From: a virus
DNA: 22,154 nucleotides
Reading direction: 5' to 3' (one strand)
IMG/VR virus record: IMGVR_UViG_3300025425_000184
Coordinates: 1 to 22,154 of that record
The notes beneath the pieces were generated by a model. That model worked only from the letters and a program-made list of their open reading frames with translations. It was not told where the DNA came from and made no database searches. The translations under genes were made by a program, and so were the position numbers. This document shows positions 8,251 to 21,566 of the stretch, in pieces (the stretch's first letter is position 1; each line of letters begins with the position of its first letter).

Positions 8251-8265
8251 AAATCCTTATATTTG
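8237..8265 (+). promoter_or_regulatory. Bacteroidota-type promoter of the plus-strand cassette
   Basis: TTTG at 8237-8240 as the -33 element and a perfect TATATTTG at 8258-8265 as the -7 element, 17 bp apart, matching the TTG-N17-23-TAnnTTTG consensus of Bacteroidota sigma factors. The ATG of the ribbon-helix-helix gene follows 18 nt later. The promoter overlaps the 5' end of the divergent protease gene. Confidence 0.7.
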
Positions 8266-8283: not shown

Positions 8284-8448
8284 ATGGCCATAAAAGAATC
8301 GAAAGATGTTAATACGAGAGTAGTCAGGGCTTTAGTTCCTAATTCAATGGAGCAAGAGTTCACAGAAATAGCCGAGCGCAGAAAAGTATCTAAGAGTAGC
8401 GTGATCAGAAAAGCTATTTGTGAGTTCAATAAAAAGTGGCGACTGTGA
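8284..8448 (+). CDS. Small ribbon-helix-helix DNA-binding protein
   Basis: A 54-residue protein: a basic N-terminal strand (DVNTRVVRALVP) followed by two helices (SMEQEFTEIAERRKV and KSSVIRKAICEFNKKW), the classical Arc/MetJ/CopG ribbon-helix-helix plan. Such proteins dimerise and bind short palindromes. A consensus promoter lies 18 nt upstream and it is the first gene of a plus-strand cassette inserted in an otherwise minus-strand late region. That makes it a good candidate regulator of this cassette, of the overlapping protease gene, or of the palindromes at 8466-8510, 9357-9372 and 20910-20925. The minus-strand frame covering 8229-8525 is a shadow. Confidence 0.8.
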   Translation: MAIKESKDVNTRVVRALVPNSMEQEFTEIAERRKVSKSSVIRKAICEFNKKWRL

Positions 8449-8465
8449 TGTATTTTGAAATAACT

Positions 8466-8510
8466 CCTACCTTTTCCGAACCTTATTGCGTAACCTTCGT
8501 AAAAGGTAGG
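8466..8510 (+). promoter_or_regulatory. Large inverted repeat in the leader between the regulator and the 114-aa gene
   Basis: CCTACCTTTT (8466-8475) and AAAAGGTAGG (8501-8510) are perfect 10-bp inverted repeats; after one mismatch the stem continues with CGAA/TTCG around a 15-nt loop. The direct repeat AACCTT occurs twice within the loop region. Outer bases GTGAT (8445-8449) and ATCAC (8520-8524) could extend the structure. It ends 16 nt before the ATG at 8527, so it may be an operator or an RNA switch. No T-run follows it, so it is not a simple terminator. Confidence 0.5.
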
Positions 8511-8526
8511 TAACGAACATATCACT

Positions 8527-8871
8527 ATGGAAGATTTAAAATTTAAGACGCTAAGCGTAGCGCATTCAAAGGCGATTCAAAAACGGCTCTTTAAACTAGG
8601 TTGTAAATGGGCTGGGTCTTTAGACCAAGAAATTGGTAACGCTGAAGGACTTTGTATCTATGTTTATGACAATAGGATGTATCACAACTTTTCAAAAGAT
8701 CCCTTTATTGATTACTCAGGTAAGTCGGCCACGCTTGATGATCTGTATAATGAATCCGTTATTAATCCAAAAAATGAAGATGCAAATAAAACTAAGATTG
8801 ATTCGTTAACGGTCGAAGTTGAACGGCTTTCAAAGCTTGTACATAAAATAGAAACAGACTTAGCTAAATAA
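8527..8871 (+). CDS. Conserved-type phage hypothetical protein, 114 aa
   Basis: The N-terminal part (SKAIQKRLFKLGCKWAGS, then YVYDNRMYHNFSKD, ATLDDLYNES) has the pattern of a widespread small phage protein family in which a helix and a GxxW motif precede short beta strands and a T-L-x-D-L motif. The C-terminus (about 83-114) is a predicted coiled coil. No enzymatic residues are recognised. It is the second gene of the plus-strand cassette, follows the large leader hairpin, and is separated from the next gene by 2 nt. Function unknown. Confidence 0.7.
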   Translation: MEDLKFKTLSVAHSKAIQKRLFKLGCKWAGSLDQEIGNAEGLCIYVYDNRMYHNFSKDPFIDYSGKSATLDDLYNESVINPKNEDANKTKIDSLTVEVERLSKLVHKIETDLAK

Positions 8872-8873
8872 AT

Positions 8874-9149
8874 ATGAAAATAATTAAATCGCTTTTTAAG
8901 ATAAAAGAAGAAACTTTATTTGACAAGAAAGGCAATGTTACATTAACAGAAGATTCTGCTTATTTAATGGATTGTATTTTAACAATATACGCTTCTGGAA
9001 TAGAAGTAAAAACATTGCATAGGCTTAATTTAGAGCTATACAGGTGTGGTGTATACATAAGTTACCCTGACCTTAAAAAGGTTATTACTTACCTATGTAA
9101 CGAAGGGCTATTATCTAAGCTAACCGATGATCTTGTAACTCTAAAATAA
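8874..9149 (+). CDS. Hypothetical protein, 91 aa, possible winged-helix fold
   Basis: It begins with a lysine-rich stretch (MKIIKSLFKIKEE), followed by alternating helices and a final pattern (YPDLKKVITYLCNEGLLSKL, DDLVTLK) like the recognition helix and wing of a winged-helix protein. It is not assigned to a family. It is 2 nt downstream of the 114-aa gene, and its TAA overlaps the ATG of the next gene by one base (TAATG), so the three are translationally coupled. Confidence 0.65.
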   Translation: MKIIKSLFKIKEETLFDKKGNVTLTEDSAYLMDCILTIYASGIEVKTLHRLNLELYRCGVYISYPDLKKVITYLCNEGLLSKLTDDLVTLK

Positions 9150-9295
9150 TGAGCAACCGAATAGGCCAAAATAAGCTATACGCCAACGGCATGAAGTCCA
9201 CTCCGTACTACCTTCGTCAGGGCTTTGTATTCGACTACGATAAGAAGCCGACCGAAAAGTTATTGATTAAAAATGGTGAAAAGGTTAAGGTATAA
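9149..9295 (+). CDS. Hypothetical small basic protein, 48 aa
   Basis: An open frame of 48 codons from the ATG overlapping the previous stop to the TAA at 9293. The product (MSNRIGQNKLYANGMKS, YYLRQGFVFDYDKKP, ending GEKVKV) is basic, with no membrane segment or Cys motif. Support comes from the tight TAATG coupling and from the fact that it fills the space up to the duplicated leader. Not recognised. Confidence 0.55.
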   Translation: MSNRIGQNKLYANGMKSTPYYLRQGFVFDYDKKPTEKLLIKNGEKVKV

Positions 9296-9391
9296 ACCGT
9301 CTGTATAATAATGATGCCACTCGTATAAACTAGACTAACAAGTTTCGATGCCTTGCGTATATTTGAATATACAAAACGATAAGAACATGAC
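9296..9391 (+). promoter_or_regulatory. Duplicated 96-nt leader, copy 1, with promoter and palindrome
   Basis: This aligns without gaps to 20891-20986 (minus strand). Conserved blocks are TGTATAATAAT, CCACTCGTRTAAA, then 23 variable bases, then a 3' block from TTGCG to the ATG. It contains TATATTTG (9358-9365), a perfect -7 box, inside the near-perfect palindrome GTATATTTGAATATAC (9357-9372). The start of the 78-aa gene is at 9387, about 15-18 nt behind the expected transcription start. The -33 element is not obvious. Confidence 0.7.
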
Positions 9392-9623
9392 AAACACAGA
9401 AACGGGATACACAGAAATGGGAAACAGCGCAGCATTTACAAGCAATAGAGAGGTAATCTTAGCTATCACAGAGGTCACTCAAGATAACTTATGGAGGTTC
9501 TCAGTAAAGTTAATGAGAACACTAAAAGAAGGTATTATAACCACAGATCAAATGGGTGGTCATATAGAGTGTTTTACAAGACACTGCAAAGCGGAAAAAA
9601 TAAACATGAACTACCCTTCATGA
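9387..9623 (+). CDS. Hypothetical protein, 78 aa, behind the duplicated leader
   Basis: Product begins MTNTETGYTEMGNSAAFTSN and ends KAEKINMNYPS; soluble, no recognised motif. The frame also opens further upstream at 9348, but the DNA between 9348 and 9386 belongs to the leader shared with 20891-20986, so the second ATG is preferred. It ends 7 nt before the convergent terminator. It has no visible similarity to the 72-aa protein behind the other leader copy, so the control region rather than the gene is shared. Confidence 0.6.
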   Translation: MTNTETGYTEMGNSAAFTSNREVILAITEVTQDNLWRFSVKLMRTLKEGIITTDQMGGHIECFTRHCKAEKINMNYPS

Positions 9624-18109: not shown

Positions 18110-18767
18110 TTCCGCTTAGTTTCTTTATTTCACTTAATCTATCTTGATACATCGCGACCGCTTTAGAATACAGTAAATGAAAGTAAACTGTTTCAGCGTC
18201 CTTATCTTCAATGTCACTGTACTTGGTTAGGTCGCCACTTGCTAATGAATACCGTACCGCACCAACTCCAAATGATTCAAGGTCTTTAACTCCAGCGTCA
18301 ATTTCTTGTTCTGTATACCCCTTGTTATCGTTTAAGTCTTTATACCGTTCCAAAAATAACGATAAGCTGTTTAATATGTTAATACTCTGGCCATATATTA
18401 AACCGATAGACCAAGTTAAAGCTTTGTCACCGAAATAGATAACGCATAACTCTACGCAGTAACTCCACTTATTGAGCGATTGCAAAGCCATCTTAGCGCG
18501 CTCTATCTTACCCCACGATTCACCCGCTACGTTGATATCCTTCTTGACCTTAGCACCTTTCGGTTCATCTTCCATAAATTCAAGAATAGCCATGAACGCC
18601 AATACCTGGTCGCTATTCAATGCTTTCACCTCTTGGTCTGTTAGGTTGCTGAAATGCTTTATTTGATCACGTGGCGCGTCTGGGAACGTATGCAGCTTAG
18701 CGACCGATACGTCTTCCCACAAGCTTAGTATTTGTCTGGACTCGCCTTGAACCTTGAAGTTTACCAT
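18096..18767 (-). CDS. Hypothetical late protein, 223 aa, overlapping the terminase 3' end
   Basis: Mostly helical, with FSNLTDQEVKALNSDQVLAF near residue 40 and a hydrophobic helix region near 115-140. It is not recognised; a tail assembly chaperone or head-completion protein is possible from location. The frame starts 71 nt inside the 3' end of the large terminase gene. A later start (MAILEF, near residue 59) would avoid this but would cut a well-formed N-terminus, so the long overlap is preferred. Confidence 0.6.
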   Translation of the reverse strand: MVNFKVQGESRQILSLWEDVSVAKLHTFPDAPRDQIKHFSNLTDQEVKALNSDQVLAFMAILEFMEDEPKGAKVKKDINVAGESWGKIERAKMALQSLNKWSYCVELCVIYFGDKALTWSIGLIYGQSINILNSLSLFLERYKDLNDNKGYTEQEIDAGVKDLESFGVGAVRYSLASGDLTKYSDIEDKDAETVYFHLLYSKAVAMYQDRLSEIKKLSGNEHT

Positions 18768-19983
18768 GTGTTGAGTTTTTAGTTTGTCCTTGTCCGTTTA
18801 GTAATAAGTCAGTAAAGCCCCAAACCAAAGCGTCTACCCTGTCAGGTGATTGCGTTGTTTTCTCAGGGTTAAAGCTAACCATTTGCGCTTCCAATATTGG
18901 AAACCTTCCAACGTGAAATATTTTGCTTTGCTCGTAAAGCGAATAGATAGGCTCGGCACGAACGTACTTACCCTTTGTTGCCGTCACTAGCTTAATACGA
19001 ACTAGCTTGTCATATTGCCTTATAACGCTTTCCACCATGTCCCCGCCTTGGTTCTTTTCTGCTACTATACAATCTGCGTTATGCCTCTTAACAGCTTCAA
19101 CAGCTACCTTTGCCCAATCGTTAGGGCTATACCGCCCGCTTAAATCTTCAAGTACGTACCCGTTCCCGATAGCATCCACGGCTTGAACTGTAATACCCGT
19201 TTCATCGCTTGTTGATGTATTAGTGGTTGACGGGTCAATGGCCACAACCGTTCTGTTTAGTACTGGCTTCTGATCTATCCTAAGCCTGTCAATCATTGGC
19301 CTAGACCATAGTAGCCCCTCGCTATCTTCTACCCAGTCACCCATAAACAAATGGTTGAATCTGTGGAGGTTGTTGATTCTAAGGCTTTCGGCTTGGTCTA
19401 CAAACGAATCGGATAGGTTATGAATATTGTCTTTGTAAGTAGTGTGAATGTAGGTAGTGTCGTTTCGCTTATCCTTTACAAATCGCTGGTAAATCCAGTG
19501 CGTTTTAAAGCTTGGATTCATCACTAGTATTACCGTGTTCGGTTGTAGCTTCGATCTAATAGATAGGTCTATGCGATCAAATATATCTTCGTCTACCAGT
19601 TCTTCAGCTTCGTCTAATACCCATGTAGTCACGCCCGCAATAGATTTGAGGTTAGCAGTGGCCGTTCCTTGACTAGTCTTAATTCCTTTAAACAGAATCT
19701 TTGACCCTGTAATCTTGTTGATTATTTCGTTTTGAGTTATCTCAAAATCTAAGTGCGCGTTAAGCATTTCAATCTTTTCAATGAACTCAGGTATGATTGA
19801 AATGTTAGCGGACACCAATGTCCAACGCGTAAATAGTATTATGTTATTCGGTTCATAGGTGAGGTTAAGCAAGTAGAGCGATACTATAAACGACTTACCA
19901 GAACCACGTCCTCCAGTAATAAGTTGATATCGATTCTCAGGAGGTCTAACAAATAACGGCTTGTAGCTATTCAGTATCTGCAT
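18697..19983 (-). CDS. terL: Terminase large subunit
   Basis: 428 residues. ATPase half: Walker A GGRGSGKS at 24-31, Walker B VLDEAEEL at 122-129 with catalytic Glu125, and coupling motif VMNPS at 154-158. Nuclease half: Asp250 in VAIDPSTTNTS, Glu309 in VAEKNQGGDM, and Asp381/Asp384 in SPDRVDALVWGF, the acidic residues that bind metal in RNase H-like terminase nucleases. It cuts concatemeric DNA and pumps it through the portal using ATP. The ATG at 19983 overlaps the small subunit by 17 nt. The C-terminal tail after residue 395 is basic and overlaps the next gene. It leads the long late operon. Confidence 0.95.
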   Translation of the reverse strand: MQILNSYKPLFVRPPENRYQLITGGRGSGKSFIVSLYLLNLTYEPNNIILFTRWTLVSANISIIPEFIEKIEMLNAHLDFEITQNEIINKITGSKILFKGIKTSQGTATANLKSIAGVTTWVLDEAEELVDEDIFDRIDLSIRSKLQPNTVILVMNPSFKTHWIYQRFVKDKRNDTTYIHTTYKDNIHNLSDSFVDQAESLRINNLHRFNHLFMGDWVEDSEGLLWSRPMIDRLRIDQKPVLNRTVVAIDPSTTNTSTSDETGITVQAVDAIGNGYVLEDLSGRYSPNDWAKVAVEAVKRHNADCIVAEKNQGGDMVESVIRQYDKLVRIKLVTATKGKYVRAEPIYSLYEQSKIFHVGRFPILEAQMVSFNPEKTTQSPDRVDALVWGFTDLLLNGQGQTKNSTHGKLQGSRRVQTNTKLVGRRIGR

Positions 19984-20248
19984 CGATCCACTGAATAGGT
20001 GGTGCGGTGATCTTGTCGCCTTGCGTGGTGTGGTCTACTTGTTGGCGCGGCATTCCATATCTATACGACAGCCATGCTTTCAATGCTTGTACATCGCCCT
20101 CGCTGCACTTATCCCAAAGCGCAGCCCATACCGTTACGGGTACAGCTATCGCGTCCATCGTTTCGATTAGCTTTATTTCGTCTGCTTTTGGAGGTCTTCC
20201 CGCTTTGCCTTTAGTGCTGTGTCCTCCGTTGTTTTTTCTTGCATCCAT
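19967..20248 (-). CDS. Putative terminase small subunit
   Basis: 93 residues with a basic N-terminus (GKAGRPPKADE, an AT-hook-like GRP) and a helical middle (WAALWDKCSEGDVQALKAWL) ending in YRYGMPRQQVDHTTQGD. This pattern, together with the 17-nt overlap with the large subunit, fits a short terminase small subunit that binds phage DNA at the packaging site. It is shorter than many small subunits and lacks a clear full helix-turn-helix. The start ATG at 20248 lies behind an AT-rich spacer that may hold the late promoter. Confidence 0.7.
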   Translation of the reverse strand: MDARKNNGGHSTKGKAGRPPKADEIKLIETMDAIAVPVTVWAALWDKCSEGDVQALKAWLSYRYGMPRQQVDHTTQGDKITAPPIQWIDADTE

Positions 20249-20562: not shown

Positions 20563-20570
20563 CAAATTTA
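20563..20570 (-). promoter_or_regulatory. Possible -7 promoter box
   Basis: TAAATTTG on the minus strand matches TAnnTTTG exactly, but it ends only 3 nt before the ATG at 20559 and no clear -33 box is seen upstream, where the terminator T-run lies. If real, the mRNA would be leaderless or nearly so. Confidence 0.3.
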
Positions 20571-20585
20571 CAAAAGAATAGCCAT

Positions 20586-20613
20586 AAAAAAAACCACCCT
20601 ATTTAAAGGGGGG
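20586..20613 (-). terminator. Terminator after the 72-aa gene
   Basis: On the minus strand CCCCCCT pairs with AGGGTGG (one mismatch) around a short loop and is followed by eight T. It lies 63 nt past the stop of the 72-aa gene and before the 91-aa gene. Confidence 0.7.
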
Positions 20614-20676
20614 CTTCATGTGATCAAAAAGTAATTTCTTTATCAATTAGTTGTAAATTGGTGTGGATTTATCATT

Positions 20677-20895
20677 TTAGTACCCTCTGTTTTGAAGCTG
20701 AGTTATCCTTATTGCAAACCCTCTATCTGTATATCTCCTGATTACATCTTCTTTCTGAGAAAAGGTATATTTATCCTCATAGTATGTAATTAAGTTTATG
20801 TTATCCCTTGAGATTGCAAACCAGCCAGCAACATCATTGCCGTCTGAGTATACACCTTTTTCGTTTCTTTCGTTGTTAATCTCTGAAGTTGTCAT
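20677..20895 (-). CDS. Hypothetical protein, 72 aa, behind the duplicated leader
   Basis: Product starts MTTSEINNERNEKGVYSDGN and contains WFAISRDNINLITYYEDKYT; no known motif. A longer frame opens at 20940, but that DNA belongs to the leader shared with 9296-9391, so the ATG at 20895 is chosen. It has its own promoter region and terminator and is therefore a single-gene unit. Not related by eye to the 78-aa protein behind the other leader copy. Confidence 0.6.
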   Translation of the reverse strand: MTTSEINNERNEKGVYSDGNDVAGWFAISRDNINLITYYEDKYTFSQKEDVIRRYTDRGFAIRITQLQNRGY

Positions 20896-20986
20896 AGTTT
20901 TATCGTTTTGTATATTTAAATATACGCAAACACCTGACATTGGTTGTGTTGATTTACACGAGTGGTAGTATTATTATACATGCGGT
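20891..20986 (-). promoter_or_regulatory. Duplicated 96-nt leader, copy 2, with perfect palindrome
   Basis: The inverted partner of 9296-9391. The core GTATATTTAAATATAC (20910-20925) is a perfect 16-bp palindrome; its TATATTTA half differs in the last base from the -7 consensus. The blocks TGTATAATAAT, CCACTCGTGTAAA and the 3' block up to the ATG are kept with the same 23-nt spacer. It directly follows the terminator of the RNA candidate. Confidence 0.7.
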
Positions 20987-21032
20987 AAAAAAACCACCCT
21001 AGATAGCGTCTTTCCGCTTTGCTTTGGGTGGC
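20987..21032 (-). terminator. Terminator of the RNA candidate
   Basis: On the minus strand CCACCC pairs with GGGTGG, with an inner AGCG/CGCT hairpin in the loop, followed by TTTTTTT. The T-run and stem side share AAAAAAACCACCCTA (plus-strand reading) with the terminator at 20586-20613. Confidence 0.7.
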
Positions 21033-21130
21033 TTCGTTACAACTCCGTGACGCTGATAAATGGGGTTGCGTGGCGGAGAGTAGTTTTATGACCCGTTAGC
21101 CAATATGACGGGAAGCCAATCGGGTACGGT
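20987..21130 (-). ncRNA. Candidate structured small RNA, about 145 nt
   Basis: Between the 140-aa gene and the leader lie about 145 nt with no usable open frame that are visibly more GC-rich than the surroundings. On the minus strand they contain three stems in order: CCCGT/ACGGG around 11 nt; CTCCG...ACGC / GCGT...CGGAG with a 2-nt internal loop; and CCACCC/GGGTGG, which encloses an inner AGCG/CGCT hairpin and is followed by seven T, a terminator. A perfect TATATTTG box lies at 21135-21142, so transcription would start at about 21130. No match to a known RNA class is recognised. Confidence 0.6.
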
Positions 21131-21134
21131 TACA

Positions 21135-21142
21135 CAAATATA
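21135..21142 (-). promoter_or_regulatory. -7 promoter box of the RNA candidate
   Basis: TATATTTG on the minus strand, a perfect TAnnTTTG, placed just after the stop of the 140-aa gene (21144-21146). No clear TTG is seen at the usual distance upstream, so the -33 side is weak. Confidence 0.5.
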
Positions 21143-21143
21143 T

Positions 21144-21566
21144 TCAATCTTCTTTAAAGTAGGCTAGATATAATCTGTTAATGTTGTCCCAATACTCATA
21201 CCCTTGAGGTGAACTATTCCAATGAAAACACACTAACATCCCCCCCTTGTCCGTATTCATATAGGGAACATCACTGCACTCCTTTAAATAATCGTGCGCT
21301 AGATACGGGTACTGATCTTTCACCGACTCGAAGAAGCCCCAAAGGCTTTTCTTTTCTCGGATTGGTTCTGCCCATTTTTTATTGTAAATGATTATGCCAA
21401 GCCCATTGCCATTTTTCATCCACACTATATCATCAGATGTATCTAAAGCCTCTATGTCTCGAAAATTCGTATACATAGTTTGACTTTCGCGATTGGTTAG
21501 GCACGAAATCACATCCCCCCTCTTATACCGCTTTTCAATTTCGGCTATCGCTTCTTTTAAATTCAT
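21144..21566 (-). CDS. Hypothetical protein, 140 aa
   Basis: A soluble protein with many aromatic residues (KKWAEPIREKKSLWGFFESV, CFHWNSSPQGYEYW, NRLYLAYFKED) and an N-terminal helix (KEAIAEIEKRYKRGD). No family is recognised. Its start overlaps the stop of the 75-aa gene, so it belongs to a small operon with the two genes upstream. Confidence 0.65.
   Translation of the reverse strand: MNLKEAIAEIEKRYKRGDVISCLTNRESQTMYTNFRDIEALDTSDDIVWMKNGNGLGIIIYNKKWAEPIREKKSLWGFFESVKDQYPYLAHDYLKECSDVPYMNTDKGGMLVCFHWNSSPQGYEYWDNINRLYLAYFKED

Follow-up and report, generated by a model that had tools for sequence, protein, structure and literature searches.

A three-hairpin element between the early and packaging genes of an uncultured phage: probably a composite terminator, possibly also a source of short RNA

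Introduction

The pR′ late leader of phage lambda (6S RNA) is a short terminated RNA upstream of the late genes, and the packaging RNA (pRNA) of phage phi29 is a small RNA near the packaging genes. Bacteroidota also have small RNAs (sRNAs) that derive from 3′ UTRs or lie between genes, and such RNAs have been mapped both in Bacteroides thetaiotaomicron and in Flavobacterium psychrophilum (PMC7366714, PMC9723704). This phylum uses TAnnTTTG as its sigma-A −7 box, at positions −12 to −5 in F. psychrophilum (PMC9723704); a −33 motif reported in Bacteroides was not found in F. johnsoniae (PMC7366714). The locus described here combines a box of this type with three hairpins and a T-run, and lies close to the terminase genes of a phage.

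Genomic setting

The window, meaning the whole stretch of 22,154 nucleotides that was analysed, is a linear viral contig with most of its genes on the minus strand; those upstream of the terminase genes are small ORFs of unassigned function. The source phage is uncultured and its host is probably a member of the Bacteroidota, as hinted mainly by the enrichment of TAnnTTTG boxes. The element lies behind the last gene of an early operon and, reading along the minus strand from its T-run, is followed by a promoter-like block, a variable gene, a terminator, a second conserved box and the packaging operon:

21144 to 21566, minus strand: ORF140, a 140-aa open reading frame of unassigned function (its weak PHROG matches are likewise unassigned), which ends the upstream operon on the early/replication side
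20905 to 20975, minus strand: conserved promoter/leader-like block (TGTATAATAAT...CCACTCGTRTAAA...TTGCGTATATTTRAWTATACAAAAC), directly behind the T-run of hairpin 3
20677 to 20895, minus strand: variable small gene, ~72 aa from its likely ATG, with unrelated genes in its place in sister contigs
20585 to 20616, minus strand: terminator closing the variable gene, of the hairpin 3 type, with a 15-nt identity (TAGGGTGGTTTTTTT)
20563 to 20570: conserved TAAATTTG box, directly before the terS-side packaging operon
19967 to 20248, minus strand: putative small terminase subunit of 93 aa, named by position, in the downstream packaging operon
18697 to 19983, minus strand: large terminase subunit (PF04466, PF17289)

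The promoter/leader block measures ~90 nt and is present twice, at about 20890-20975 on the minus strand and about 9300-9390 on the plus strand (core ~9305-9377), before unrelated small genes. The gene behind it is swapped in sister contigs, and the arrangement looks like a slot for the expression of accessory genes. Inside the minus-strand structural genes sits a plus-strand block (8284-9623), which opens with a 54-aa ORF (8284-8448) that resembles a ribbon-helix-helix repressor when its sequence is judged by eye; a TATATTTG box at 8258 precedes this ORF. At one end of the window, five near-identical 96-bp tandem units (547-1122) lie within a long ORF on the minus strand (3-2666), probably a tail fibre gene.

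Anatomy and fold of the element

On the minus strand the element runs, 5′ to 3′, from a TATATTTG box (21142-21135) through three hairpins (stems at 21127-21090, 21082-21038 and 21035-20992) to a T7 run (20993-20987). The initial annotation had described a box, three stems and a T-run terminator on this strand, and all of them are present within the interval it gave:

21135 to 21142, minus strand: candidate Bacteroidota −7 box TATATTTG (TAnnTTTG), found as TACATTTG in a sister lineage
21090 to 21127, minus strand: hairpin 1; its homologue at this site in contigs L094, L095 and L096 is a plain intrinsic terminator (hairpin plus T6)
21038 to 21082, minus strand: hairpin 2, CTCCG..CGGAG with ACGC/GCGT, confined to the window and four sister contigs
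20987 to 21035, minus strand: hairpin 3 with an inner stem and the arms GAAGCCACCC/GGGTGGTTTT, followed by T7 (20987-20993); a predicted intrinsic terminator

The description of this stretch as a GC-rich, non-coding island of no known class is also borne out. The GC content of the RNA is 49%, against 32-45% in adjacent 500-base tiles, and 1-nt indels, taken here as evidence of non-coding sequence, separate two haplotypes of the element. Conservation as a protein frame had been named beforehand as an observation that would speak against an RNA, and no frame is open through the element. Rfam searches at both gathering and relaxed thresholds returned no credible match, nor did blastn against phage records, and a tRNA/tmRNA search of the window found none.

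The minus strand folds at −47.3 kcal/mol, against a mean of −33.6 for shuffled sequences (z −3.56; none of 200 shuffles equalled it), and the plus strand folds less well (z −1.84). The signal comes from hairpins 2 and 3 (z −4.3 and −4.4, respectively; −1.5 for hairpin 1), and similarly stable folding is seen in a few of the 882 147-nt tiles of the window, most of them coding. Hairpin 1 has no T-run directly behind it in the window. Hairpin 3 has a GC-rich 10-bp outer stem followed directly by T7, the layout of an intrinsic terminator, with a stability of −20.4 kcal/mol; a simple terminator scan of the window did not pick it up, its loop being long and containing structure of its own.

Comparison among relatives

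When viral contigs were scanned for exact copies of hairpin 2, the full element came up in four IMG/VR contigs beyond the window. Two haplotypes can be distinguished, A (the window and L093) and B (L090-L092), whose elements are ~94% identical. Eight of the ten differences between them fall in unpaired positions, one converts a U-G to a U-A and keeps the pair, and one alters the length of the T-run. To judge from these sequences, the sparing of the stems offers mild support for a maintained fold, and it is equally compatible with a terminator and an sRNA. The check for compensatory changes among homologues, proposed in the initial annotation, had only the two haplotypes and the shortened sister form to draw on, with that single U-G/U-A difference and no two-sided change between the haplotypes.

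In two contigs of the sister lineage, L094 and L095, the same site holds hairpin 1 with TTTTTT immediately behind it and has neither hairpin 2 nor hairpin 3. ORF140 is 51-55% identical in this lineage, and the large terminase of L004, the contig also listed as L095, is 87% identical. The two lineages differ by ~97 nt with hairpins 2 and 3, a gain or a loss whose direction takes an outgroup to set. Hairpin 3 has a counterpart within the phage itself, as its arms and T-run recur in the terminator that separates the variable gene from the packaging genes, in a comparison covering all relatives that have the cassette. The homology of these sites and their arrangement are evident on sequence comparison.

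A covariance model of the element (R1), run over 89 sources, gave no matches beyond the known copies, the sister forms and one hairpin-1 terminator in a contig with sheath and tube genes. Among ~80 relatives with a related terminase it found no further full element, and no similar RNA was found in the equivalent intergenic regions of more distant relatives. Looser patterns were less discriminating: for hairpin 2, the matches listed among genome contigs came mostly from high-GC genomes with no Bacteroidota among them and were discarded as chance, and a hairpin-1 scan gave mostly chance matches except for one contig with tail-sheath- and tail-tube-like genes. In that otherwise unrelated contig, where tail sheath and tail tube genes are probable, a near-identical hairpin-1 terminator, loop included (GTACCCGTTTTGCTTCCCGTAAGATTAGCAAGCGGGTCTTTTTTT), stands behind the tail tube gene (L163:10862-10902).

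Probable termination at the early/packaging boundary

The element is probably a composite intrinsic terminator at the boundary between early and packaging genes, forming the 3′ end of the ORF140 operon and possibly giving a short RNA as well. It follows ORF140, which ends at 21144, on the same strand, at the 3′ end of a gene and operon where a terminator is expected. The ORF140 stop codon directly precedes the TATATTTG box, and the hairpins are therefore also the 3′ end of that operon. The stretch would close the operon at the point where early/replication genes give way to the cargo-plus-packaging genes. The simple terminator still intact in the sister lineage would have its counterpart in hairpin 1, and hairpin 3 with its T7 would now halt transcription and insulate the adjoining promoter-like block.

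Several observations argue for this reading: the sister site is a plain hairpin with T6, the arms and T-run of hairpin 3 are shared with the cassette terminator, and the promoter-like block starts directly after the T-run. The differences between haplotypes A and B lie in loops or keep pairs, as they would in a maintained terminator, and the full element has no homologue in the ~80 terminase relatives. Predicted base-pairing with the phage's own gene starts is also no better than in shuffles, the best duplex in an antisense search of gene starts in the window having −14.1 kcal/mol against a shuffled mean of −14.8. Termination itself is predicted from these sequence features. Two features count against this reading: termination needs no second well-folded hairpin such as hairpin 2, and the enriched and retained TAnnTTTG box favours real initiation. 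If the element is only a terminator, it is a case in which sister phage lineages differ, at the border of an exchangeable gene slot, in having or lacking a second and longer terminator.

Another reading is a relic of cassette exchange, in which hairpins 2 and 3 would be all that remains, at the 3′ end, of a former cargo gene that left its terminator behind, and do nothing except stop transcription. Upstream of the element, haplotype B and the window are 99.8% identical; within it the figure is 94%, and haplotype B has another gene behind it. This step in identity places the element at the edge of an exchanged module, a mosaic junction. The match of hairpin 3 to the cassette terminator and the different downstream genes of sister contigs agree with such an origin. 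However, there is no recognisable gene remnant and no further homologue of hairpin 2, and insertion can be told from deletion only with an outgroup. A relic is very unlikely.

The candidate promoter and a possible small RNA

The box TATATTTG occurs five times in the window, and TAnnTTTG 34 times, against 25 ± 5 in shuffles. Between genes the enrichment is about threefold (6 seen against 1.9 expected; P about 0.01). An ordinary sigma-70 promoter search was uninformative (12 found, 9.5 expected). Taken together, the intergenic enrichment and the retention of the box as TATATTTG or TACATTTG in both lineages favour initiation here. The box may be a real promoter, as suggested, on thin evidence, by its retention in the sister lineage, where the TACATTTG box would read directly into a terminator. 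TTTG is absent at the −33 spacing.

By analogy with the Flavobacterium spacing, an RNA would plausibly start at 21130 and end at ~20987. Its length of ~143 nt, conditional on the box working, agrees with the discrete transcript of about 145 nt in the initial annotation; were the box active, the terminator stretch would also give a stable terminated RNA of this length.

As an alternative to the composite terminator, it is possible but unlikely that a functional phage sRNA of ~143 nt is transcribed here from a dedicated sigma-A promoter, ends at its own terminator and acts either in trans or on a protein. The geometry from box to hairpin matches the spacing at mapped Flavobacterium transcription start sites (PMC9723704), TAnnTTTG boxes are enriched between genes, the fold is unusually stable (z about −3.6) with a hairpin 2 that is superfluous for termination, and haplotype variation spares the stems. 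On the other side, the −33 motif is missing at its usual spacing, no base-pairing target among the gene starts of the window rises above chance, Rfam yields no match, hairpin 1 with T6 is all that the sister lineage has, and the full form is confined to five contigs. The box, moreover, lies at the stop codon of the preceding gene, and the RNA is therefore not isolated from the upstream operon. Of the initial proposal of a small RNA with its own promoter and terminator, the structure and the terminator stand; its independence is doubtful in view of the adjoining stop codon and narrow distribution, hairpin 1 being the sister's plain terminator and hairpin 3 the terminator type usual in this phage.

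More doubtful again is a lineage-specific version of this idea. In it, a structured RNA of ~143 nt, transcribed from its own promoter where the early genes meet the packaging genes, would have arisen when an ordinary terminator acquired hairpin 2 and a further terminator, and its target would be a protein or mRNA of the host or the phage. If the RNA is real, it would add a phage small RNA to Bacteroidota, a phylum in which little work has been done on regulatory RNAs encoded by phages.

Three related contigs carry RNAs of another kind between their early genes and terminase. These tRNA-like RNAs (L108:1164-1310; L020:3682-3787, equal to L128:2903-3008; L019:3688-3790, equal to L104:2945-3047) share an identical acceptor stem (AGTCAGG/CCTGACT), a nearly identical T-arm and a D-arm-like GGCGGA..ACGC, and have differing structured domains in place of the anticodon arm, for totals of 103, 105 and 146 nt. 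Two of the three match the Rfam tRNA model (39.4 and 32.8 bits), ARAGORN found no tRNA on L104, L108 or L128, and the L108 and L020 copies have no match in phage records. The L108 copy lies directly behind TTTTTG-N21-TATATTTG. These RNAs look more unusual than the hairpin element.

Comparison with known systems

Like phi29 pRNA, the element would be a small RNA close to packaging genes. It differs in having no Rfam match, in accompanying a terminase of the Terminase_3/Terminase_6C type (PF04466/PF17289) and in being missing from relatives with related terminases; the first two of these rule against a pRNA of the phi29 type. For the packaging-related or decoy RNA suggested initially, position near the terminase genes is the only positive evidence.

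A late-leader RNA like that of lambda pR′, whose promoter and terminators would block the packaging operon until antitermination, has in its favour the length of ~143 nt and the placing of a promoter-like box and a terminator a short way before the terminase genes, on the strand of the packaging genes; the likeness is that of a short terminated RNA before late genes. Such a role is nevertheless improbable, as terS is separated from the element by another promoter-like block and another terminator. With these and the conserved TAAATTTG box directly before the terS-side operon, read-through into the packaging operon is unneeded. In addition, no antiterminator gene was identified, and relatives with related terminases carry no such element.

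With the sRNAs of Bacteroidota, 3′-UTR-derived or intergenic, the element shares a TAnnTTTG-type box, a strong fold, an intrinsic terminator and a similar length. Unlike them, it is known from sequence alone, in full form from five contigs, and no target was found among the gene starts of the window.

Compared with intrinsic terminators, the element has two extra hairpins upstream, and hairpin 3 has a long loop that holds an inner stem. What is shared is a GC-rich stem followed by T7 behind a stop codon, arms that recur in the phage's other terminator and a corresponding site in the sister lineage that is a plain hairpin with T6.
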